Shown in pieces: positions 1-30,190 of a DNA stretch of 30,190 nucleotides. Each line of letters begins with the position of its first letter. Positions within the stretch are counted from its first letter, which is position 1. Origin of the DNA: a virus; the IMG/VR virus record IMGVR_UViG_3300020187_000139, positions 1-30,190 of that record; one strand, written 5' to 3'. The notes beneath the pieces were generated by a model that saw only the letters and a program-made list of their open reading frames with translations, did no database searches and was not told the DNA's origin. The position numbers were made by a program, and so were the translations under genes.

Positions 1-75
1 CGGCATCTGCTCAAGGTTAACTTCTTGACCTAGCAGTCGCTTGACTCCATTTAAAATTAATTTGTAATCTTTCAT
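1..75 (-). CDS. Scaffold-like protein, N-terminal fragment cut by window edge
   Basis: Only the first 25 codons are present, starting at 75 and running off the left edge. They match the first 25 codons of the complete gene that starts at 29468 base for base. It is not a truncated gene but the place where the contig begins. Read around the circle, this gene is the one at 28776-29468. Confidence 0.9.
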   Translation of the reverse strand, partial: MKDYKLILNGVKRLLGQEVNLEQMP

Positions 76-107
76 ACATATATAACTAATGCATGATTAA
101 TCTGTCA
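73..107 (-). promoter_or_regulatory. Recurring upstream element, left copy
   Basis: On the minus strand this reads TGACA, a 15-bp spacer, then AGTTATATATGTATG, with the final ATG being the start codon at 75. The same element precedes genes starting at 2313, 10243 and 27115, with a 14-bp spacer in those. It is the same locus as 29466-29500 across the circular junction. Its role as promoter or translation signal is inferred. Confidence 0.7.
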
Positions 108-126
108 CATTTAAGCTAGTTTTTCA

Positions 127-261
127 TTAGCTACCGCACGCCTCACATTCAGCGTCATCTATATCGCATACTTGTGGCTTGACAACCTTTGTCTTGTCCT
201 GATTCTCAGCGGCTCGCATTAATGCCTCTAAGCCGTTTGCTTCTTCCGTAATGTTCGCCAT
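127..261 (-). CDS. Small Cys-containing protein, 44 aa, allele A
   Basis: A 44-residue reading frame starts at 261 (MANITEE) and ends with TAA at 127-129. The C-terminus carries three cysteines (C32, C39, C42) in an acidic stretch, which could bind a metal. The diverged copy at 29520-29654 keeps the frame, length and all three cysteines. By my codon-by-codon comparison it has about ten synonymous and four amino-acid-changing codons, which supports a real gene. It follows the 75-residue gene by one base and precedes the scaffold-like gene, so it belongs to the structural operon. I do not recognise the family; a virion accessory role is a guess from position. Confidence 0.75.
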   Translation of the reverse strand: MANITEEANGLEALMRAAENQDKTKVVKPQVCDIDDAECEACGS

Positions 262-262
262 T

Positions 263-490
263 TTAATCTTCTGTTTCTATAGGGTTAAATTCATTCTTCC
301 AATTAATGAATGTATTCGCATTACCAATAATTGTGACAGAGGTGTCTGTGCTTAGATCTCTAATGGTTTCAATACCATCATACGAAGTCACCGATCCATC
401 TGCGTTTGTTTTAACAAAATCCCAAATTACATCACCATCTCCTTTAGTAAAGGATTCTTGGTTAATTATATATCCGTATTTATTTTCCAT
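263..490 (-). CDS. Small protein after the fibre gene, 75 aa, allele A
   Basis: The start at 490 (MENKYG) is chosen because its ATG overlaps the TAA stop of the LamG-type gene as TAATG. A longer version from 505 would intrude further into that gene. The protein is soluble-looking, has no membrane segment, and ends in ETED. The second copy (29884-30111) differs at about six residues and keeps the length. Location directly behind the fibre-like gene suggests a fibre accessory or assembly protein, but this is inference only. I do not recognise a family. Confidence 0.75.
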   Translation of the reverse strand: MENKYGYIINQESFTKGDGDVIWDFVKTNADGSVTSYDGIETIRDLSTDTSVTIIGNANTFINWKNEFNPIETED

Positions 491-1569
491 TAGTGTGCTA
501 TCCAATAAGTTCCTGTAAAATTATTTAATGTTCCTGTGTTACTATTACCGCTATCATCAATAGCTGTTATATCTGTTCCTGAGCCATTCAACCTATAATA
601 AATATTTGGGTCTGTTACAACGTCAGTAGCAAATTGCCCCAGTCCACCATTATATAAGTCATCAACATTTTGTTGAGTTAATGAGGACGCTACCTTAACA
701 AATAGCTCATCAAGAATGAATTGCGCATAAGTACCAACACGTTCGCCTATTCGATCAAAACTTATAGTTTCGGGATCGTAATTATCGGTATCTCCTGTAT
801 ATTTTGTCCCATTAATCCACATTTCATTTACTCCTCCATTTAATGAAACAGCAATGTAATACCAAGTACTTGTGGAAATGGCTGGAAATGAAAATGTAGT
901 AGTTGCAGCACCAGCAGATCTACTTCTAAATGTAGCAGAGGTGCTATTGTTCCACCTAAACCATTGATTTCCATTAGTTGAATCGCCTAAAATATATTCA
1001 AAATTGGGCGTTGATGAAAAGTTTACCCAAAATCCAAAGCATAAACCATTTGAAGGTGGTTTGTTAATTGAGGTAAATGAAACATTGTCATTTACACCAT
1101 CAAAACTAAGTGCATTGCCAAAAGAGAACACATCCGCTATCTGCGCACTTGCTAAACTATTTGCTGAATCACTACCTGATGCGTTAGTTTCAGTTTGTAC
1201 TGCTCTTATATAATTTGCATCATCCGCTGCTACCAATGTATAAGTGATTGAATTAGCACCAATGATGTCCGCCCATCCTGTAGAACCATCAGCACTTCGT
1301 TGCCATGTCCATGAAGTTGTCGGTGTAGGATCACCTGTTGCACTTGCAGCCGTTGCCGTAATTGTTTCACCTACTTGACTCTCCGCGCTAATAGTTGGAA
1401 CACCGCTAATGACTGGAATCGTTCCTCCTCCTGCACCTTCTAAAGCAGTTAATCCAGCTTCACTATCACCGTAAACTGAACCCCAGCCAATAGTATTGTT
1501 ATCAGCTCCTTTACCCCAGCCTATATTGTTATTTAGGACACCATCTCCCCAGCCGTTATCGTTTGCCAT
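490..1569 (-). CDS. LamG/jellyroll-type fibre or receptor-binding-like protein
   Basis: This is a 359-residue protein with three visible parts. Residues 1-35 hold three GWG motifs spaced about 13 residues apart, each preceded by a short Asn-rich stretch. Roughly residues 50-145 resemble an Ig-like phage repeat (ISGVPTISAESQVGETITA, then YTLVAADDANYIRA). From about 150 to the end there is a concanavalin/LamG-type jellyroll (ALSFDGVNDNVSF, WYYIAVSLNGG, MWINGTKY, DELFVKVASSLTQQNVDDLYNGG), a fold known for sugar binding. It ends in GTYWIAH. Such proteins usually sit on tails or capsids and bind host glycans. Here it lies between the protease and the scaffold gene, so a head decoration role cannot be excluded. 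A diverged 3' end is seen at 30111-30190. Confidence 0.8.
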   Translation of the reverse strand: MANDNGWGDGVLNNNIGWGKGADNNTIGWGSVYGDSEAGLTALEGAGGGTIPVISGVPTISAESQVGETITATAASATGDPTPTTSWTWQRSADGSTGWADIIGANSITYTLVAADDANYIRAVQTETNASGSDSANSLASAQIADVFSFGNALSFDGVNDNVSFTSINKPPSNGLCFGFWVNFSSTPNFEYILGDSTNGNQWFRWNNSTSATFRSRSAGAATTTFSFPAISTSTWYYIAVSLNGGVNEMWINGTKYTGDTDNYDPETISFDRIGERVGTYAQFILDELFVKVASSLTQQNVDDLYNGGLGQFATDVVTDPNIYYRLNGSGTDITAIDDSGNSNTGTLNNFTGTYWIAH

Positions 1570-9022: not shown

Positions 9023-9486
9023 TATACGCAGATTTCGGTGTTAGGTACTTCGATAGCAATATCAATTGCCCATCCAGCTAAAAGGTTCTCAAACCTATCC
9101 TTAAAGGAAGTGGCGTTTATCGATCCTGTTAATTGATAAAAGTTGTCAAACGCATCTCCTCTTCTTAATTGCTCAACCAATCTATTACAAACTTGAAGCT
9201 GAGTATTCCAAATATCTTGAAGGTCTGTTGTTCCGTAGAATGGCTCTGACTCGTTTCTAGAATCAACTTTATTAACGTCAACTATGTCCATACATACTAT
9301 TGTAAAGTTCATAGTCATTGTCGATCCGTTCAATGAAGTATCTCCTACTACTATATGCGACAACGGAAAGATAGATTTTTTTGCCAAATCAACTTCGCTA
9401 ATATCACCGATGCTAACTGTGTTTACGTTATCATCAGCAATAAGTAGGTCATGAAGTTTTTCGGTTACTGTATAAAATTGCCTCAT
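9022..9486 (-). CDS. Putative tail terminator / completion protein
   Basis: This 154-residue protein begins MRQFYTVTEKLHDLLIADDN and has a mixed alpha/beta look. It shares position with tail terminator proteins beside gp10-like genes. Its ATG overlaps the TGA of the frameshifted chaperone extension (ATGA), implying coupling to ribosomes that have shifted frame. Members of this class cap the tail tube before head joining. Family assignment rests on context and general form, not on a diagnostic motif. Confidence 0.45.
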   Translation of the reverse strand: MRQFYTVTEKLHDLLIADDNVNTVSIGDISEVDLAKKSIFPLSHIVVGDTSLNGSTMTMNFTIVCMDIVDVNKVDSRNESEPFYGTTDLQDIWNTQLQVCNRLVEQLRRGDAFDNFYQLTGSINATSFKDRFENLLAGWAIDIAIEVPNTEICV

Positions 9487-9746
9487 TGTCTTTGTCTTTG
9501 TCTTTTTAATTCTTGCGCTTCAATCTCAGCTTTCTCTTTATCAAAACTTAATTTGCGCAAACATTGATGAACATTAGTTCCTGTGACTTCATCGAGCTTA
9601 GTAACATCTCCATTTGCGAGATGTACAATTGATTGATACCATCCCCATTTTGCTGCGAACTGAGATCTTCCTCCGAAGTCATTGTCTTTGATTCCTTCAC
9701 CAAAGAGGCTATCGTATGTTCCACCAATTCTCTTCCTAAAGTCCAA
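9483..9746 (-). CDS. Tail chaperone frameshift extension (T-like part)
   Basis: This 87-codon frame has no ATG at its head; it opens in the -1 frame directly at a run of nine U in the upstream gene. A -1 shift joins residues 1-166 of the upstream product to LDFRKRIGGTYDSLFGEG and onward, giving about 253 residues. The extension contains FAAKWGWYQSIVHLANGDVT and ends in a Gln/Arg-rich helix. This is the layout of lambda gpG/gpGT-type tail assembly chaperones. The next gene starts inside its stop codon, which supports that this frame is read. Confidence 0.75.
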   Translation of the reverse strand: MDFRKRIGGTYDSLFGEGIKDNDFGGRSQFAAKWGWYQSIVHLANGDVTKLDEVTGTNVHQCLRKLSFDKEKAEIEAQELKRQRQRQ

Positions 9747-10243
9747 AAAAAAAGCATTGCACCTAACGCATCCGATAGTCCAACTTCCTTCATCGCTTCG
9801 GCATATTGATCAGAGCCTTTGTATGGTTCAATCAAATATGTGTCCTTAACTTCCATCGTAATAGGTCGGTAAAGAATAGTCAACGCCTTGTGAAATGTAA
9901 GCGGATCAGATATGTAACTTTCTAAGTCTACATATTCTCCCAATGTCATCGCGTCTATTTTAGGAATGAAGCCAAACTTTTTCCCGTCTAACTCAATTAT
10001 TTTATTATACGAAGGCTTACGCTCTAATATTTTAGCTAGTTCATCAACCGCAAAACTAAATACGCTAATATCTGCCTGTCTGAGTTTGTCTGGATCGGCC
10101 TTGCAGAATATCTCCAGCATTTTCATTTGAACAAATGTCGAATCTTCTTGACCTTCGTTTGCTTTAAGTATCTTTTGAAACTCTTGATAATCACCTAAAG
10201 CGATATCGTTTAGCGAAGCTGGTATTTGAAACTTTACTTTCAT
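9548..10243 (-). CDS. Tail assembly chaperone (G-like), 231 aa
   Basis: The zero-frame product begins MKVKFQIPASLNDIALGDYQ, typical of the N-terminal part of chaperones that load the tape measure. It ends in the zero frame at 9548, after the slippery site used to make the longer fusion. The start at 10243 is set by the recurring upstream element. Residues 167-231 exist only in the unshifted form. By analogy with siphoviruses, most ribosomes would make this form and a minority the fusion, the ratio mattering for tail assembly. It heads the tail transcription unit right after the large terminase gene. Confidence 0.75.
   Translation of the reverse strand: MKVKFQIPASLNDIALGDYQEFQKILKANEGQEDSTFVQMKMLEIFCKADPDKLRQADISVFSFAVDELAKILERKPSYNKIIELDGKKFGFIPKIDAMTLGEYVDLESYISDPLTFHKALTILYRPITMEVKDTYLIEPYKGSDQYAEAMKEVGLSDALGAMLFFWTLGRELVEHTIASLVKESKTMTSEEDLSSQQNGDGINQLYISQMEMLLSSMKSQELMFINVCAN
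9745..9753 (-). other. Slippery U9 site for programmed -1 frameshift
   Basis: The mRNA reads CTT TTT TTT TGG in the zero frame, which contains the heptamer U UUU UUU in the correct phase for a -1 shift. After the shift the frame reads TTG GAC TTT AGG, entering the 87-codon extension. I did not establish a stimulatory downstream structure. Confidence 0.75.
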
Positions 10244-10274
10244 ACTTATATAACTTGATTTTTGATTTTTGTCA
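10241..10274 (-). promoter_or_regulatory. Recurring upstream element before the tail unit
   Basis: The minus strand reads TGACA, 14 bases, then AGTTATATAAGTATG, with ATG being the start of the chaperone gene. It occupies almost all of the gap after the large terminase stop codon at 10276-10278. It is part of the four-locus set described in the findings. Confidence 0.75.
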
Positions 10275-10275
10275 C

Positions 10276-11439
10276 TTAACGAATAGCGTAAACTCCGTAG
10301 TTTGGTTTACTTAACTTATTCCATACAGCGTATCTGGTCGCGTCAATAGCATGGTTAAAATTGTCTATTGGCTTGTTCAGTAGATTGCCGTTTTTATCTT
10401 CTTGCCATTTATAGTTTTGAAGTTCCTTGATGATGTTGAGGCTTGACTTAGTTACATGAATCTTGTATCGCTTGAGCATATCAATGCCAGCCATAACACT
10501 ATCCGCACCTTTAGCCGTTGGCTTTACATTCCACCTCATACGATATAGTTCTTCGATTGATTTAGGCTCTGCGCTGTCTGCAAATATTTCGTCTTGTCTA
10601 GTTAGCTGAAGCTCCGCAAACTTATCTGATATGTCAGGGTTGGTTAAATTGGTGTGATAAAGTAACTCATCTAAATAAAGGTTTTCTCCATCTTTATAAA
10701 CGGCAACCATAGAAGTAGGATCGTTGGTAAATCCAAAGTCTAAACCATACGATAGTATCTTAACATCAGCAGGTACTTCATCAACTACTGAGAATTGAAA
10801 TATAGTGGCTCTTGATGAACCACGCTCACCAAGTCCATATATACGCCAGTAATCATTATCAGTAAATTGAAGTCGCTCAATCTCCATCTTGATACTTTTA
10901 TCAAGAAACTTATTATCCTTATAAGTGGTTTGTAAGAAGTCGCAATCATCTCTTGGCACTACTTTATCATAAATCCAATGAAAGCTATCAGAAGGATTGT
11001 AATCAAGTATTATACGGCCTGTGGTTCTGAATACAATTTGTTGCCAATCTTCCCAATAAAATTCATTGGCTTCGTTAAGAAATGCTAAATCTCTTTTTCG
11101 GCCTCTGACTTTTTGCGGTTGATCTAAGCTAATAAACTCAATTAGGTTGCCGTTAAGAATATATTCGCTATTGCTTTTGTTGTGGTAGTCTTCGTTGTAT
11201 ATTTCGTGCTTCCTCAGTATGTCAAAGAAGTCACGCATTACAGATGAACGCAATGCAGGAAAAGTCTTTCTAGCAATTGTAACTGTTTTACCTGTGTTTT
11301 TGTTGCAATAGTAAAAGATAATCCAAAGCAGAATGTTGTATGTTTTACCAGACCTTGTACCGCCTTGCTCAACAATTATCTTCTTCTCTGAATACTTGAG
11401 ATGATGGTAGACTCTATTCGTTTCTATCTTTCCCGTCAT
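10276..11439 (-). CDS. terL: Terminase large subunit
   Basis: This 387-residue protein is the packaging motor ATPase and nuclease. Walker A is GGTRSGKT at residues 26-33, and a Walker B-type segment LAFLNEANEF lies near 119-128. The nuclease part shows YGLDFGFTNDPTSM (about 232-245), ADSAEPKSIEELYR and, near the end, NHAIDATRYAVW with its acidic residue. It is close to the PBSX/XtmB-type terminases. Its start overlaps the end of the small subunit gene. It follows the modification cluster directly, so the packaging genes appear to share that transcript. Confidence 0.95.
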   Translation of the reverse strand: MTGKIETNRVYHHLKYSEKKIIVEQGGTRSGKTYNILLWIIFYYCNKNTGKTVTIARKTFPALRSSVMRDFFDILRKHEIYNEDYHNKSNSEYILNGNLIEFISLDQPQKVRGRKRDLAFLNEANEFYWEDWQQIVFRTTGRIILDYNPSDSFHWIYDKVVPRDDCDFLQTTYKDNKFLDKSIKMEIERLQFTDNDYWRIYGLGERGSSRATIFQFSVVDEVPADVKILSYGLDFGFTNDPTSMVAVYKDGENLYLDELLYHTNLTNPDISDKFAELQLTRQDEIFADSAEPKSIEELYRMRWNVKPTAKGADSVMAGIDMLKRYKIHVTKSSLNIIKELQNYKWQEDKNGNLLNKPIDNFNHAIDATRYAVWNKLSKPNYGVYAIR

Positions 11440-11767
11440 CTTCTATAATCTCAAAGGTTTTAATTCCTTCGTGTGCTATTTCTTGACGTTCAATGTAACC
11501 TCTTCTCTTTCCTTTGGTCTTTAAATAAAAAATAGTTGACGTTGGATTACCGTCTTGAATTTGTTTGTGCAAACTACTTTCGGCAAAGTCAATAGCAAGG
11601 TCTGCAATACTTTCAACTGAGGCGCGATATTCTTCATCCTCCTTCATCCAATTGTAATGTGAACCCCTATCTATACCAACCGTCTTGCAAGCCGTTGTAA
11701 CGATGCCTAATGATTTTTCAAGCGCAACTATCATCGCCTTTTTTAGTGTTGAATTTTGTTTGTTCAT
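11414..11767 (-). CDS. terS: Terminase small subunit
   Basis: A 117-residue DNA-binding protein. A helix-turn-helix is visible around residues 18-45 (LGIVTTACKTVGIDRGSHYNWM). GNPTSTIFYLKTKGKRRGYIER (two adjoining blocks, about 73-94) is a hallmark of this terminase small subunit group. The C-terminus is acidic. It should recognise the packaging start site on phage DNA. The gene is adjacent to and overlaps terL by 26 bases. If the cluster upstream modifies phage DNA, this protein would have to act on modified DNA. Confidence 0.85.
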   Translation of the reverse strand: MNKQNSTLKKAMIVALEKSLGIVTTACKTVGIDRGSHYNWMKEDEEYRASVESIADLAIDFAESSLHKQIQDGNPTSTIFYLKTKGKRRGYIERQEIAHEGIKTFEIIEDDGKDRNE

Positions 11768-11768
11768 A

Positions 11769-12578
11769 TTAAATTCCTTTGAATGCTTTTAATGGATAAA
11801 ATATTAGACTATTTCTATAACCTCCTTCGTGAGTTGGTATTATTGGCGTTACTCCGTGAACGTTTCTCCAAGCTGGGTAAACTAATATAGAGTTATCCTT
11901 TTGTCCTATCGTGGCATCATAGTCTGGTATGTGCAAATCTCCGCCTTTAGAATTATGTTTCTTGCAAATGATTACGTTTACTGCTCCCACTATATTGCCA
12001 CTATCTCTGTGAAATGGAGCTGAAATATTAAAATTTGAAATTGAACCTGTAAACAAATTAGAAAATTTCCATTTGTCGTTTATTTCCGTAAACAATTCTG
12101 TTTGAAGTTTGTGTTGTTCTGGCAATATTTGTCTAATAAGTTCTTCGCTCTCTTTAGCTAACAGCAACATTGCTTTAACAAAAATCTCAGCTGATTTTAC
12201 AGAATGAACGCTTGACCTTGAGGCGTAAGGTCTTCTTACCATAGGCTTTGGAGGTATAGATCCAAGTATAACCGACATCTGAGATACTTCACCGCCTTTT
12301 TTGTTTTTATATTTTTCAATTATATCTGGTCTTGCAGATTGTTGATTAATAGCAGACGCCCTGTTCATTATTGATTTCGGCACTCTTTTTGAATTAAATT
12401 CTGCGTCTGCTAAGTCTGCTAACTTGCACATCTTTTCAGGCATTTTAGTAAGGTAAAACCCTATTGCCTCTCTATCTGCATAAAATATACAGTCTTCAGT
12501 TACATTAGGTTCTATATATTCGCAAGCCTCTCCTATCTTTCTGCTATGCTCTACTTTTATTAAATCAACTCTTTTCAT
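11769..12578 (-). CDS. TET/JBP-type Fe(II)/2-oxoglutarate DNA dioxygenase candidate
   Basis: The C-terminal third of this 269-residue protein has the signature of a double-stranded beta-helix dioxygenase: FHRDSGN gives the HxD iron ligands H190 and D192, HGVTPI gives the distal ligand H241, and R255 in GGYRNSLIFYP is placed to bind 2-oxoglutarate. GGDLHIPDYD (183 onward in the same domain) fits the GGxL strand. The pattern resembles the TET/JBP family, which oxidises the methyl group of 5-methylcytosine or thymine in DNA. The N-terminal ~175 residues are not diagnostic. Its start overlaps the end of the glycosyltransferase gene by four bases (ATGA), and a ParB-like gene precedes that. Other 2OG oxygenases remain possible, so substrate is unproven. 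Confidence 0.7.
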   Translation of the reverse strand: MKRVDLIKVEHSRKIGEACEYIEPNVTEDCIFYADREAIGFYLTKMPEKMCKLADLADAEFNSKRVPKSIMNRASAINQQSARPDIIEKYKNKKGGEVSQMSVILGSIPPKPMVRRPYASRSSVHSVKSAEIFVKAMLLLAKESEELIRQILPEQHKLQTELFTEINDKWKFSNLFTGSISNFNISAPFHRDSGNIVGAVNVIICKKHNSKGGDLHIPDYDATIGQKDNSILVYPAWRNVHGVTPIIPTHEGGYRNSLIFYPLKAFKGI

Positions 12579-13306
12579 TTTACTGTTTTGTTATAATGCA
12601 TAGCTAGTTCTTTTATCTTTGTTTTCATGTCAACTCTATCTCCTTTGTTTTTTAAGGTTACAAATGGATGCCACTCATAGCACATTTTTTTAGCAGTTTC
12701 CTCATCCTTTTTTGCTTTGTACTCAGACTGAAGACCTCCAGCGTTTGAACCAACATCAGGGCAAGCAAACCAAAAGTGATTAAACCTTAAAACTCCATTA
12801 CCTTTTTTTATAGTTTGCAATGCAAAATCTCTATCCTCTTTTAAATTAAACTCTGGTCGGTAATCCCATTTTATTTTACTTACGTTCATTAAGACGCAGA
12901 CTTCCGCAAACTTTCTATTTATAGAGTAACTTGTTTTCTCGTGCCAAGCGTGTTGAGTATAATTTATACCAACCAGTTCAAAAGGTAATTTTTTTGCTTT
13001 TTCTAATATATTAAACCATATAGATGCGTCTTTTTTTACCGTTTTACCATTGTAAATACCAAAAGAAGTTACATCATCATCGCATATTATAACCCATTCA
13101 AAACTATTCTGCCTAGCATAGTTTAACATAAAATTACGAACGTATCCAATGCCTTTGTCATTATCTAATATAGAAACTTTATTAGGCACATTGTAATCAT
13201 CAAACTCTTGAGGCTCAATAAAATGAAAAACTTTTATACCAACGTCTTGAAAAAGTTTGTACGTTTTTGTGTTTAACCTTCCTTTTGTGGGTATAAAGCA
13301 AATCAT
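12575..13306 (-). CDS. TET-associated-type glycosyltransferase (GT-A fold) candidate
   Basis: This 243-residue protein starts MICFIPTKGRLNTKTY, where the IPTKGR loop (5-10) suits nucleotide-sugar binding. An IGYVRN segment (53-58) comes before the metal-binding DDD at 76-78 (WVIICDDDVTSFG). LKEDRDFALQ further on fits the acceptor side of GT-A enzymes. The overall form matches the glycosyltransferases found next to phage TET/JBP genes, thought to glycosylate hydroxymethylated bases. Both ends overlap its neighbours by four bases (ParB-like gene before, dioxygenase after), indicating one coupled operon. A role on other acceptors such as protein or cell-wall sugars is possible but less favoured by context. 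Confidence 0.7.
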   Translation of the reverse strand: MICFIPTKGRLNTKTYKLFQDVGIKVFHFIEPQEFDDYNVPNKVSILDNDKGIGYVRNFMLNYARQNSFEWVIICDDDVTSFGIYNGKTVKKDASIWFNILEKAKKLPFELVGINYTQHAWHEKTSYSINRKFAEVCVLMNVSKIKWDYRPEFNLKEDRDFALQTIKKGNGVLRFNHFWFACPDVGSNAGGLQSEYKAKKDEETAKKMCYEWHPFVTLKNKGDRVDMKTKIKELAMHYNKTVK

Positions 13307-13872
13307 AACTTATTTTTTTGATCCTTTAAATATTCCATTATCATACCTCCAACATACGCTTCACGTTCGCGCCAAAACTTGACCAGCTCATACGCTTCCT
13401 CATAGTGCTCTGCTTCAAATTCTATTTGAATGGCTTTCTTAACCCCATTGGTCATATCGGAAAGCTGCTCAGAAACGTCATCCTCGTCAAGAATTGAATA
13501 GTCTACGTCTGCTGGCTGTTGCCAAACATCCAATCCCCACTCCTCAAGCTGAAAAGAATCCCACTCGTTTGCTAAAATATCCCAATCCCATTCTCCAAAG
13601 CCTACATTGTCTTTTACTATAAACTCCTTCTGTTGCTCTTTCGTTAATTGTTCAGCAATTATAATAGGAACTTCTTTTAATCCAGCTTCTTTGCAAGCCT
13701 TTAAACGCATATTACCACCAAGAACTACCATATCATTATTGACAACAATAGGTCGCAATTCCAGCATCTGAGGAAATTCATTTATTGATTTGACCAGCTT
13801 CTTAAACTTGTCATCCTTTATAATTCTAGGATTTTTAGGATTTGCCTTTAAAGTGTTAATCTTAACTTTCAT
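13303..13872 (-). CDS. ParB-like nuclease-fold protein
   Basis: The N-terminal ~95 residues form a ParB/sulfiredoxin-type domain: NPKNPR at 11-16, RPIVVNNDMVVLGGNMRLKA with the GGNMR box at 52-56, then EVPIIIAEQLTKEQQKEF. The rest is acidic with a helical tail (about 130-189). Stand-alone ParB-like proteins of this kind are common beside DNA-modifying enzymes in phages. It overlaps the glycosyltransferase start by four bases, so it is likely made together with it. It may target or regulate the modification enzymes, or nick DNA; this is inference. A plasmid-type partition role is unlikely because no ParA is present. Confidence 0.75.
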   Translation of the reverse strand: MKVKINTLKANPKNPRIIKDDKFKKLVKSINEFPQMLELRPIVVNNDMVVLGGNMRLKACKEAGLKEVPIIIAEQLTKEQQKEFIVKDNVGFGEWDWDILANEWDSFQLEEWGLDVWQQPADVDYSILDEDDVSEQLSDMTNGVKKAIQIEFEAEHYEEAYELVKFWREREAYVGGMIMEYLKDQKNKL

Positions 13873-13873
13873 A

Positions 13874-14338
13874 TTATATTTTTTTAAGTTCTAAATGCTT
13901 TATATCTGAATATCTTACTTTAGTTATTAAATCCTTTTTACCCCACTTTTCTCTTGTGTAGAATTTTAAATACTCTTTCTTATCTGTTGTTTTTTCTTTA
14001 ACGTTTGATTCTACAAATTTCAATAAATCTGCTCTATCATAAATAGAGAAAGAATCAAGTTCAGATATGTGCATAGCAATGTACTTTGCATCTCCTCTTA
14101 ACCAACCCTTATTTCCGTTCACGTTAGAATATTCCAGCCATATAGTTTCTAAATGACGGTTTCCTTTTACGTCAACACCAAAACCATTAACGTAACAATC
14201 AATATGTTTATACCAATCATCTTCATTTGTTCCATCTCTAAATTTCAGACCTCTTGCAATAACCTTTTTCATAAATAGCGACTCAAACTTATCCCCATAT
14301 ACGGAACATCTATTTAGTCTACTTTTAGAAACCTCCAT
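13874..14338 (-). CDS. PD-(D/E)XK nuclease-like protein
   Basis: This 154-residue protein shows a plausible PD-(D/E)XK core: E19 in DKFESLF, D47 in HIDCYVNG, and D56-V-K58 in GVDVKGNR. A following ETIWLEYSNVNGNKGWLRGD segment resembles a phage nuclease-like family with WxExxNVxGxxGWLxG motifs. It is the first larger gene of the modification cluster. It might process phage DNA or degrade unmodified DNA, by inference. The catalytic assignment is from motif spacing alone. Start at 14338 is in the GTTTCTAAAAG-rich context with no clear ribosome site. Confidence 0.6.
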   Translation of the reverse strand: MEVSKSRLNRCSVYGDKFESLFMKKVIARGLKFRDGTNEDDWYKHIDCYVNGFGVDVKGNRHLETIWLEYSNVNGNKGWLRGDAKYIAMHISELDSFSIYDRADLLKFVESNVKEKTTDKKEYLKFYTREKWGKKDLITKVRYSDIKHLELKKI

Positions 14339-14845: not shown

Positions 14846-15279
14846 TGTTCTTCGTATGTTGAATAAGTTAGTTCAATGTCAGCGCGCCAGTTATCCCATT
14901 GCTTGGGTGAGCAAGTACACGGCTCGTGATATTTATGTCCGTATATCTCTGAATGAATCTTGGCGATTGCTGGGTATGTCTTTGTGATATACTCGTTTTT
15001 TTCATACTTCTTGATGTCTTTTACGCTTGTCCAAAGATCATGATGTTCTTTCGACATACATTCTACTGGCTTATGGCGGCCGTTCATTGAGAATAAGACG
15101 TTGAGTTTCTCTTTGCGTGCATCACAACCGCAATCTATACCTGTGAGTTTGCTAAATAATTCAACAGCTTTTTTTATTCCTGTGGCTTCCGTAATGTTTT
15201 CAACTACATCACCAAGTCCTTTTGGTTTAGGCTTGCGGCCTCTTTTCTTCGGCAGCGGCTTTGATTCTTTCTTTAGCAT
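14842..15279 (-). CDS. AT-hook-like basic, Cys-containing protein, 145 aa
   Basis: The N-terminus carries PKKRGRKPKPKGLGD (about residues 10-24), which contains an AT-hook-like RGRKP core. The middle has GIDCGCDARKEKLN and the C-terminal part has EPCTCSPKQWDNW, so paired cysteines could bind metal. The gene overlaps the end of the sigma-like gene by 53 bases in another frame. DNA binding is plausible; transcription control with the neighbouring sigma-like factor is inferred from position. I know similar proteins from Bacteroidota phages but no function for them. Confidence 0.6.
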   Translation of the reverse strand: MLKKESKPLPKKRGRKPKPKGLGDVVENITEATGIKKAVELFSKLTGIDCGCDARKEKLNVLFSMNGRHKPVECMSKEHHDLWTSVKDIKKYEKNEYITKTYPAIAKIHSEIYGHKYHEPCTCSPKQWDNWRADIELTYSTYEEQ

Positions 15280-15736
15280 TTTTTATAGTGTTATGTATTG
15301 ATGAAAGGCTTATAGTGCTATCTCTGGCCATCTCCCTTTGCCCAATACCATGTTTGTAAACGTATTCAAAAAGCGTGCGATCATACCAATACCAATCTTT
15401 CATCTCTTCTAACACAATAGAGTTTAGTTCATCTATTGTTTCATCAAATGGTTCATCGGCTATTTCTAGAGTTTCGTAATCAATATTCGTATCAATTAAC
15501 TCTTGAGATTTCTTTTGGGCGCGGTTAAAGTCGTAAACTAAATTACGGAGCGTTATGTAAACAAAGCTCTTATTAATTTCATCACCGTACATAACTTTTT
15601 CAACGCTGTCAATGTATTTGTGCAGTCTTAAATACATTTCTTGAACTATATCTTCGCTGAAGTTACCGCAACCTAAAGACTTAGCCATTGCTATCCATTC
15701 TTTGTGTTTTGTAGTCGCGAGTTCCAGTATGTTCAC
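15227..15736 (-). CDS. RNA polymerase sigma-like factor, 169 aa
   Basis: The layout matches a small sigma-70 family protein. A region-2-like part spans about residues 5-75 (FSEDIVQEMYLRLHKYI, then NKSFVYITLRNLVYDFNRAQ). A linker follows, and a region-4-like HTH lies near 125-160 (HGIGQREMARDSTISLSSIH). The start is GTG at 15736. A TAGCTTTG box lies only five bases upstream, so a later start cannot be excluded. It could direct host RNA polymerase to phage late promoters. The recurring element upstream of four structural operons is a candidate target, which is inference. Confidence 0.7.
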   Translation of the reverse strand: MNILELATTKHKEWIAMAKSLGCGNFSEDIVQEMYLRLHKYIDSVEKVMYGDEINKSFVYITLRNLVYDFNRAQKKSQELIDTNIDYETLEIADEPFDETIDELNSIVLEEMKDWYWYDRTLFEYVYKHGIGQREMARDSTISLSSIHNTIKNAKERIKAAAEEKRPQA

Positions 15737-29654: not shown

Positions 29655-29666
29655 TTTTAATCTTCT
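29650..29666. repeat. 17-bp direct repeat flanking the 74-aa gene (copy 2 at 29877-29893)
   Basis: The plus strand reads GCCATTTTTAATCTTCT here and again at 29877-29893. Each copy spans a gene junction: GAAGAT-TAA stop, two A, ATG-GC start. Allele A (258-273) has one copy with one T fewer and lacks the gene between. Confidence 0.9.
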
Positions 29667-29881
29667 ATTAATGGTATGGGTGGATACCAACTCTCAGGCA
29701 ATACTTCTACTTCTTCCATATCGCTATGGTATTTGTCATTTTTTATAACAGCGTATTGAACCTGTATTGGGTTTTCAATAATATCTGACCAGCGAGTAGT
29801 AGTGCCATGATAGTTTTCTCCAACAGTAACCTCTTGGTTGTAATCTTCACACTCTTGATTTGTTCCTATGTAGTATGCCAT
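29657..29881 (-). CDS. Strain-variable accessory gene, 74 aa
   Basis: This acidic 74-residue protein (MAYYIGTNQECEDYNQEVTV, ending WYPPIPLIED) is present only in the right-hand allele. It lies between the 75- and 44-residue genes, two bases after the stop of the former. It has no membrane segment or known motif. Its presence or absence between otherwise collinear alleles marks it as an accessory gene. Length (228-bp segment) equals that of the 75-residue gene, and both end in an acidic ED, but sequence homology is not apparent. Confidence 0.7.
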   Translation of the reverse strand: MAYYIGTNQECEDYNQEVTVGENYHGTTTRWSDIIENPIQVQYAVIKNDKYHSDMEEVEVLPESWYPPIPLIED

Positions 29882-29883
29882 TT

Positions 29884-30111
29884 TTAATCTTCTGTTTCTA
29901 TAGGGTTAAATTCATTCTTCCAATTGGAGAATGTATTTGCATTACCAATAATTGTGACAGAGGAATCTGTGCTTATATCTCTAATGGTTTCAATGCCATT
30001 GTACGAAGTCACCGAGCCGTCTGCGTTTGTTTTAACAAAATCCCAAATTACATCACCATCTCCTTTAGTAAAGGATTCTTTGTTAATTATATATCCGTAT
30101 TGATTTTCCAT
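29884..30111 (-). CDS. Small protein after the fibre gene, 75 aa, allele B
   Basis: Same gene as 263-490 in the second allele. The start at 30111 overlaps the LamG-type stop as TAATG. Residues 4, 11 and four more in the second half differ (for example Q for K at 4, K for Q at 11), while the rest is identical, including the ETED end. Confidence 0.75.
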   Translation of the reverse strand: MENQYGYIINKESFTKGDGDVIWDFVKTNADGSVTSYNGIETIRDISTDSSVTIIGNANTFSNWKNEFNPIETED

Positions 30112-30190
30112 TAGTGTGCTACCCAATAAGTTCCTGTAAAATTATTTAATGTTCCTGTGTTACTATTTCCACTAGAGTCTGTTGCCGTTA
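30111..30190 (-). CDS. LamG-type protein, C-terminal fragment cut by window edge
   Basis: The last 25 codons plus stop of a second allele of the gene at 490-1569. It reads DSSGNSNTGTLNNFTGTYWV then AH, against DDSGNSNTGTLNNFTGTYWI then AH in the full copy. The fragment is cut only by the end of the contig. It shows that the divergence between the two alleles reaches into the fibre-like gene. Confidence 0.85.
   Translation of the reverse strand, partial: TATDSSGNSNTGTLNNFTGTYWVAH

Follow-up and report, generated by a model that had tools for sequence, protein, structure and literature searches.

Hydroxylation of a base followed by addition of a sugar is known from the kinetoplastid base J pathway, which consists of JBP1/2 and JGT and acts via thymine: a TET/JBP dioxygenase is followed by a glycosyltransferase that works on the hydroxymethyl base. 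A TET/JBP dioxygenase and a glycosyltransferase also occur in a phage, in the Burke-type system, which has a C5 methyltransferase. Phages M6 and ViI are thought, according to PMC6449724, to make 5-hydroxymethyl-2'-deoxyuridine (5hmdU) as a free nucleotide, and M6 to employ a kinase that acts on 5hmdU in DNA. Here we analyse a three-gene cassette at positions 11769-13872 of the virus record IMGVR_UViG_3300020187_000139, whose whole length (a complete IMG/VR record, linear, 30190 bases) we call the window. On the minus strand the cassette encodes a ParB-like protein (13303..13872), a GT-A glycosyltransferase of the TAGT family (12575..13306) and a TET/JBP 2-oxoglutarate (2OG)/Fe(II) dioxygenase (11769..12578). 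Judging from sequence comparison and a structural model, the three genes very probably oxidise a base in the phage DNA and add a sugar to it, and it is likely that they form one DNA-hypermodification cassette with thymine as the favoured substrate and an exchangeable tailoring gene. New here is the finding that the middle gene is exchangeable within a chassis whose ParB and TET stay constant.

With the base J pathway the cassette would share both the order of reactions, a glycosyltransferase following the TET/JBP dioxygenase on the hydroxymethyl base, and thymine, its proposed substrate. The pairing of TET/JBP dioxygenase and glycosyltransferase is that of the Burke-type system, but a C5 methyltransferase is present neither in the window cassette nor in 35 of 41 records of at least 20 kb that carry this TET (records may be incomplete), and, unlike the Burke-type system, the window family has a constant ParB and a variable tailoring gene. 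The cassette recalls M6 and ViI in that the same slot in its relatives holds an amino acid:DNA transferase (ADDT) gene and a kinase from the family that includes M6 gp54; however, the TET of the window would make 5hmdU in DNA rather than as a free nucleotide. M6 gp58 is annotated as a thymidylate synthase, whereas the thymidylate synthase profile PF00303 was absent from all 42 records searched with it, six of which lie outside this TET clade and one of which is G001, a record of nearly the same phage described below. The window cassette is without the defining partners of the M6 type (thymidylate synthase homologue and kinase) and without the C5 methyltransferase of the Burke type.

Similar loci exist in named phages. 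Mycobacterium phage Acadian encodes, at gp1-gp5 beside its large terminase gene, ParB, TET, a TAGT-like glycosyltransferase, a PIG-L deacetylase and a phrog_800 kinase, and its 69.9 kb record, like the window, gives no match to the C5 methyltransferase profile PF00145, but its TET is distant (27.5% identity, residues 102-267) and the order is ParB-TET-glycosyltransferase. Prochlorococcus phages MED4-184 and MED4-117 have the order ParB-X-TET-terminase with a TET 49% identical to that of the window, although their middle gene encodes an FkbM-type methyltransferase and not a TAGT; the ParB of MED4-184 (NC_020847.1 CPAG_00033) is annotated 'DNA methylase'. In Nonlabens phage P12024L, TET and a TAGT 36% identical to that of the window are adjacent, but its TET falls in a different clade, the window ParB has no match there, and an N6/N4 methyltransferase gene adjoins. 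PMC7852597 gives the host of P-HS2, a Prochlorococcus phage presumed to be of the FkbM type as MED4-184 is; passages of PMC8670742, PMC9599517, PMC11780129 and PMC7653180 have no bearing on the cassette.

The original prediction, made from the letters of the window, had proposed three genes overlapping by four bases, encoding ParB-like, TAGT and TET/JBP proteins, with the terminase directly after them. The open reading frames are present as described: ParB and glycosyltransferase overlap at 13303-13306, glycosyltransferase and dioxygenase at 12575-12578, and one base separates the dioxygenase stop from the gene for the small terminase subunit (11414..11767, minus strand; phrog_309 1.5e-7), which serves as a landmark for the modification slot and is followed by that for the large subunit (10276..11439, minus strand; PF04466 1.4e-21, PF17288 3.4e-19). 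The glycosyltransferase scored 58.3 bits against the TAGT profile PF20691 (1.3e-15; cut-off 27.5) and contains the IPTKGR and CDDD motifs; R10, D77, D78, D158, G190 and G191 are invariant in 33 aligned middle-slot glycosyltransferases, window included. ParB, which consists of a ParB/Srx N-terminal domain and the C-terminal tail KKAIQIEFEAEHYEEA, scored 36.1 bits against PF02195 (ParB_N, 6.7e-9; cut-off 26.3). With both profiles above the Pfam cut-offs and the motifs in place, these two assignments hold.

The TET/JBP assignment holds as well. Against the Tet_JBP profile (PF12851, 1.2e-7) the dioxygenase reached 31.6 bits, below the curated cut-off of 34.9. The search covered 26 records, made up of relatives, loci with kinase or TAGT genes and two phages; 11 exceed the cut-off, among them several members of the same clade, and G001 scores 32.8. 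H190, D192, H241 and R255, corresponding to the HxD...H iron ligands and the 2OG arginine, do not vary across an alignment of 38 sequences that includes the window, and a weak profile match to TET2 (E 0.013) lines up the same ligand and arginine positions. An AlphaFold (AF2) model built from 37 sequences, with a mean pLDDT of 82, matched TET2 with Z 18.5 and 3.5 A over 246 residues, followed by NgTET1 (Z 17.9), CMD1 (17.4), CcTet (16.0) and FTO (14.1). Foldseek placed CcTet and TET2 at the top and T7H at rank 30. The structural comparison, which had been proposed as a check, ranks TETs first, ahead of FTO. Since the dioxygenase is conserved in relatives, of which 223 were found in viral contigs and 80 kept, a chance resemblance is excluded. 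By fold, motif and profile, the window cassette is a predicted TET/JBP and TAGT system. The PHROG family to which this TET belongs, phrog_6059, is misnamed 'queuine tRNA-ribosyltransferase'.

The 80 kept relatives, three further searches and phage records gave 113 TET loci (repeated contigs and MED4-117 excluded), and the middle gene could be typed in 107 of them. It encodes a TAGT-like GT-A glycosyltransferase in 66, an FkbM methyltransferase in 26 (PF05050, 6.1e-12 for L030), a P-loop kinase in ten and a GT-B-like protein in five, the last assigned by eye, with no Pfam match in L019 and L129. GT-A families were merged by blastp at E 1e-5; the L006-type family has no Pfam match and hits phrog_842 only. 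A further type, 'TAGTc', was an artefact of frames running into an alternative ParB frame and was dropped after trimming. The six loci left untyped (L007, L124, L125, L127, L131 and L132) are truncated, have another arrangement or lack a middle gene; L131, an Oscillatoria metagenome-assembled genome (MAG) contig, shows ParB and TET overlapping directly at 9406-10792, with no tailoring gene between them. ParB escaped detection by script in nine of the 113 loci, all of which have at most 750 bases upstream of the start inferred for TET; gp1 of Acadian, annotated as ParB, occupies that space. The junction on the ParB side overlaps by 4 bases in 93 of 102 cases. A search with an FkbM query, from which 80 of 229 loci were kept, gave 69 new locus ids (17 of them sharing sequence with earlier loci): TET lies directly downstream in 69 of 69 and ParB directly upstream in 67, the other two starting at a contig edge.

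Two loci from different metagenomes, L022 and L029, carry the glycosyltransferase region of the window as the same DNA, with 60-base blocks at 1.00 identity over 13400-12561 (0.98 in the last block of L029). Outside it, identity to the window falls to 58-78% in the 5' part of ParB and to 28-77% in the middle of TET, and a second similar stretch (88-98%) lies near the TET end, at 12020-11781. Closely similar TETs can accompany different middle genes, with pairs at 96.6% (glycosyltransferase/FkbM), 94.7% (glycosyltransferase/kinase) and 92.8% identity (FkbM/glycosyltransferase). To map the middle types we used a tree inferred by maximum likelihood for 76 TETs, drawn from the 107 typed loci after removal of near-copies (at least 97% identical, same label) and of TETs of 230 aa or less; the long-branch L001, L129, L130 and L099 were dropped, and the partial L013 was typed by a tblastn match. 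The coarse types need 15 changes (minimum 3; shuffled mean 26.2), a count as low as which was reached in none of 200 shuffles, and the fine types need 30 (minimum 8; shuffled mean 42.7). These change counts indicate that the middle type is partly inherited and often swapped. As far as comparison of DNA goes, the loci show that the middle gene has been exchanged by recombination, and each related phage with a swapped gene appears to decorate its DNA differently. The glycosyltransferase is followed by a sulfotransferase gene (PF03567) in L028 (947-2247) and by a PIG-L deacetylase gene in Acadian (L127, 1707-3025), which suggests that sulfated and deacetylated sugars may be placed on DNA.

The neighbourhood of ParB was surveyed in the best 80 of 597 loci found with the window ParB (74 new ids, six sharing sequence with earlier loci). 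TET lies downstream of ParB in 55 of the 74 new loci, 18 are without TET, and one (L171) is at a contig end. The slot in the 18 holds Mom in six (PF25680 in L183, L184, L201, L202 and L206; L207 by similarity), a ParB fused to an N6/N4 methyltransferase in five (PF01555 in each), an ABC ATPase and a GNAT, paired or fused, in four (by Pfam in L191, L194 and L198; L203 by similarity) and a C5 methyltransferase in one (L193). In L199 (5860-8674) a TGT-like gene, QueD, QueE and GTP cyclohydrolase I (preQ0) stand between ParB and the small terminase gene, and in L197 (48-1726) ParB, a TAGT (PF20691 5.2e-10) and the small terminase gene follow one another in the absence of TET. For 60 of the 74 loci (49 with TET, 11 others) the 6 kb that follow contain a match to the window terminase genes; the other 14, which have less than 6 kb of sequence downstream, gave no terminase match. 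Because the slot without TET holds mostly DNA-modification genes, the TET cassette is placed among DNA-modification systems by its position, which lends support to the DNA-hypermodification role originally proposed. For phages, PMC7824862 describes Mom as well as a modification predicted for ABC-GNAT. Among the papers listed in a literature search, none describes the slot in its title or abstract opening; Iyer et al. 2013 may discuss ParB neighbours.

The ParB tail goes with TET: a strict pattern of the tail matched in 43 of the 55 TET-bearing loci and in none of the 18 without TET, and related tails were recognised by eye in most of the 12 TET loci outside the pattern. The ParB proteins of L006, L051 and L088, which share 46-48% identity overall with that of the window, keep the C-terminal tail but have an N-terminal domain of another type, which might reflect an exchange of the targeting domain as well.

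The question of which base is modified bears on the methyltransferases. A profile search of the window record found no PF00145, G001 (43 kb) contains none of PF00145, PF00303 and PF01555, and two methyltransferase motif patterns had no match in frames of at least 120 aa in the window and two further pieces of G001. This agrees with the earlier observation that the window has no C5 methyltransferase or thymidylate hydroxymethylase; both records are linear, so that a gene may be missing from them. PF00145 is also absent from the two Prochlorococcus phage records searched and from Acadian, and PF01555 occurs in three of 26 records. In the contrast clade of P12024L-like TETs a C5 methyltransferase was found in only one of 19 records, and for that reason these TETs could not serve as a positive control. 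Eleven distant TAGT loci (L106-L116) gave neither PF12851 nor PF00145 (0/11 each).

A second line of evidence comes from the kinases. A kinase query, which holds no information on TET, returned 11 loci, in ten of which TET adjoins the kinase; the contig of the remaining one, L126, stops at the kinase, which has ParB beside it. The kinase is alone in the slot in L119-L123, and an ADDT-like gene precedes it in L010, L038 and L039, as weaker matches do in L059 and L005. The L038 ADDT gene (PF18724 2.6e-12) has relatives in Salmonella phages such as PhiSH19. Slot kinases match phrog_800 (9.9e-8 for L005, 1.2e-4 for L119, 4.3e-4 for L122), as do Acadian gp5 (2.5e-31) and M6 gp54 (2e-39), which we take to be the 5hmdU kinase of M6; their alignment with Acadian gp5 has E 2.2e-5 and a probability of 76.4%. 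The kinase and the transferase in these relatives thus resemble enzymes of the 5hmdU pathway. The window and two further G001 pieces gave no match to the slot kinases (tblastn, E 1e-3). In PHROG, phrog_800 is misnamed 'terminase small subunit'. Because C5 methyltransferases are scarce, PF00303 is absent and kinase and ADDT genes occupy the slot, and after weighing the counterpoints below, we favour thymine in DNA as the substrate and glycosylated, base J-like 5-hydroxymethyluracil as the product, a reading that these comparisons make somewhat the more probable.

Several observations weigh against thymine and speak for cytosine, in which case the host, or else a methyltransferase encoded beyond the known sequence, would supply 5-methylcytosine (5mC), TET would convert it to 5-hydroxymethylcytosine and TAGT would glycosylate the product. 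PF00145 is found in six of the 41 records of at least 20 kb, three of 24 in one set (L021, L072 and L084) and three of 17 in the other (L155, L211 and L212); this count includes both of the near-copies L001 and L003 and excludes L002 (another clade), the distant Acadian and TAGT loci, five TET-less records and L171. It is also found in shorter records (L020, L073, L010, L059, L062 and L079). Five of the matches sit in short frames of 215-222 aa, and the frames of L072 and L021 bear PPCPSHS and ENV motifs. Two of the seven kinase-type records have it (L010 and L059, but not L038, L119, L121, L122 and L123), as does the L193 slot. The alignment of the slot kinase with M6 gp54 is weak (hhalign E 0.0011, probability 20.7%), and the searched records are mostly fragments. 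TET2 N1387 and H1904, presumably 5mC contacts, align with the invariant N195 and the invariant L263, which does not decide between thymine and 5mC. Phage TETs that have been assayed (Burke 2021) reportedly act on 5mC from a partner methyltransferase. Phage TETs acting on 5mC are also the subject of PMC12730594, which cites Burke et al. 2021, and Pfam names TAGT for its association with TET. On the other side stand the 35 of 41 records in which PF00145 is missing and the 43 kb of G001, without PF00145 and PF01555. A C5 methyltransferase is, moreover, about equally common in TET-less slot neighbours (1/5, a very small sample). The apparent hosts are diverse (Prochlorococcus, and MAGs of Flavobacteriaceae, a beta proteobacterium and Oscillatoria, whose contigs may be misbinned), so that useful host 5mC in all of them is unlikely. 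We regard a cytosine substrate as possible but doubtful. The original prediction had named thymine or host 5mC; the comparative evidence leans to the former, although the choice is not settled.

Two other explanations concern single members of the cassette. The dioxygenase might act on RNA, free nucleotides or protein, leaving the cassette with no role in DNA modification. 2OG dioxygenases are versatile, and T7H, at Foldseek rank 30, hydroxylates free thymine, but the DNA-acting TET2, NgTET1, CMD1 and CcTet rank first, the best about 4 Z above FTO, and TET-less slots hold mostly DNA-modification genes; we consider this very improbable. ParB, for its part, could be a partition protein that stands beside modification genes by chance, as its Pfam and PHROG names would have it. 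This is hard to reconcile with the best 80 of 597 loci: of the 74 new ones, 72 have ParB next to TET (55) or to some other gene for DNA modification (17), the remaining two being the lone TAGT of L197 and the contig end of L171, and it seems improbable to us.

Directly upstream of ParB, a small protein (13874..14338, minus strand) is nuclease-like by eye (VDVKG motif). Pfam and PHROG searches gave no family above noise for it; within one set of tested loci it is present only in L004/L092 (the same phage), it has a 34% relative in L199, and its membership of the cassette is uncertain. A sigma-factor-like protein is encoded at 15227-15736 (phrog_1740 6e-11; PF04542 below cut-off). G001 (locus L004, 43025 bases) has a cassette 100% identical to that of the window, covers window positions 1-29666 at 98-100% and is nearly the same phage. 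The start of the window (1-971) is a 100% match to the end of G001, and at the other end of the window (29655-30174) positions 29877-30174 match part of that stretch at 94%. Two stretches within G001 resemble each other at 88% over 458 bases, so a repeated gene seems to be where both assemblies break, in part by our reading of these matches.

In the mechanism that we propose, ParB would bind phage DNA and help the dioxygenase to act, the TET/JBP dioxygenase would hydroxylate a pyrimidine base within the DNA itself at its 5-methyl group, as its family and structure suggest, and the TAGT, by analogy with its family, would add a sugar to the hydroxymethyl group. We infer that the modification protects packaged DNA. 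Exchange of the tailoring gene would change the decoration of the DNA, and hence which restriction enzymes are evaded; the cassette is one of many alternatives in the slot between ParB and terminase. A wider and more tentative reading, about which we have more doubt than confidence, is that the ParB-X-TET chassis represents phage thymine dioxygenases that make 5-hydroxymethyluracil (5hmU) in finished DNA, to which interchangeable caps are added. Among the caps would be sugars (base J-like) as well as derivatives of phosphate and amino-acid type; FkbM, in its 26 loci, would add an O-methyl group and so yield 5-methoxymethyluracil, which to our knowledge has been described from no DNA. Unrelated enzymes of DNA modification encoded next to the terminase would, on the same reading, have ParB as their common loading factor.

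Should TET convert thymine in phage DNA to 5hmU, it would become possible to test in bacteria how the base J pathway arose, and there would be a second route to 5hmdU hypermodification in which the nucleotide pool is not replaced. Through exchange of the middle gene, a single chassis comes with a natural array of tailoring enzymes, which is of use for new DNA chemistries, and the slot beside the terminase is a place to search for further DNA-modification genes in many phages.

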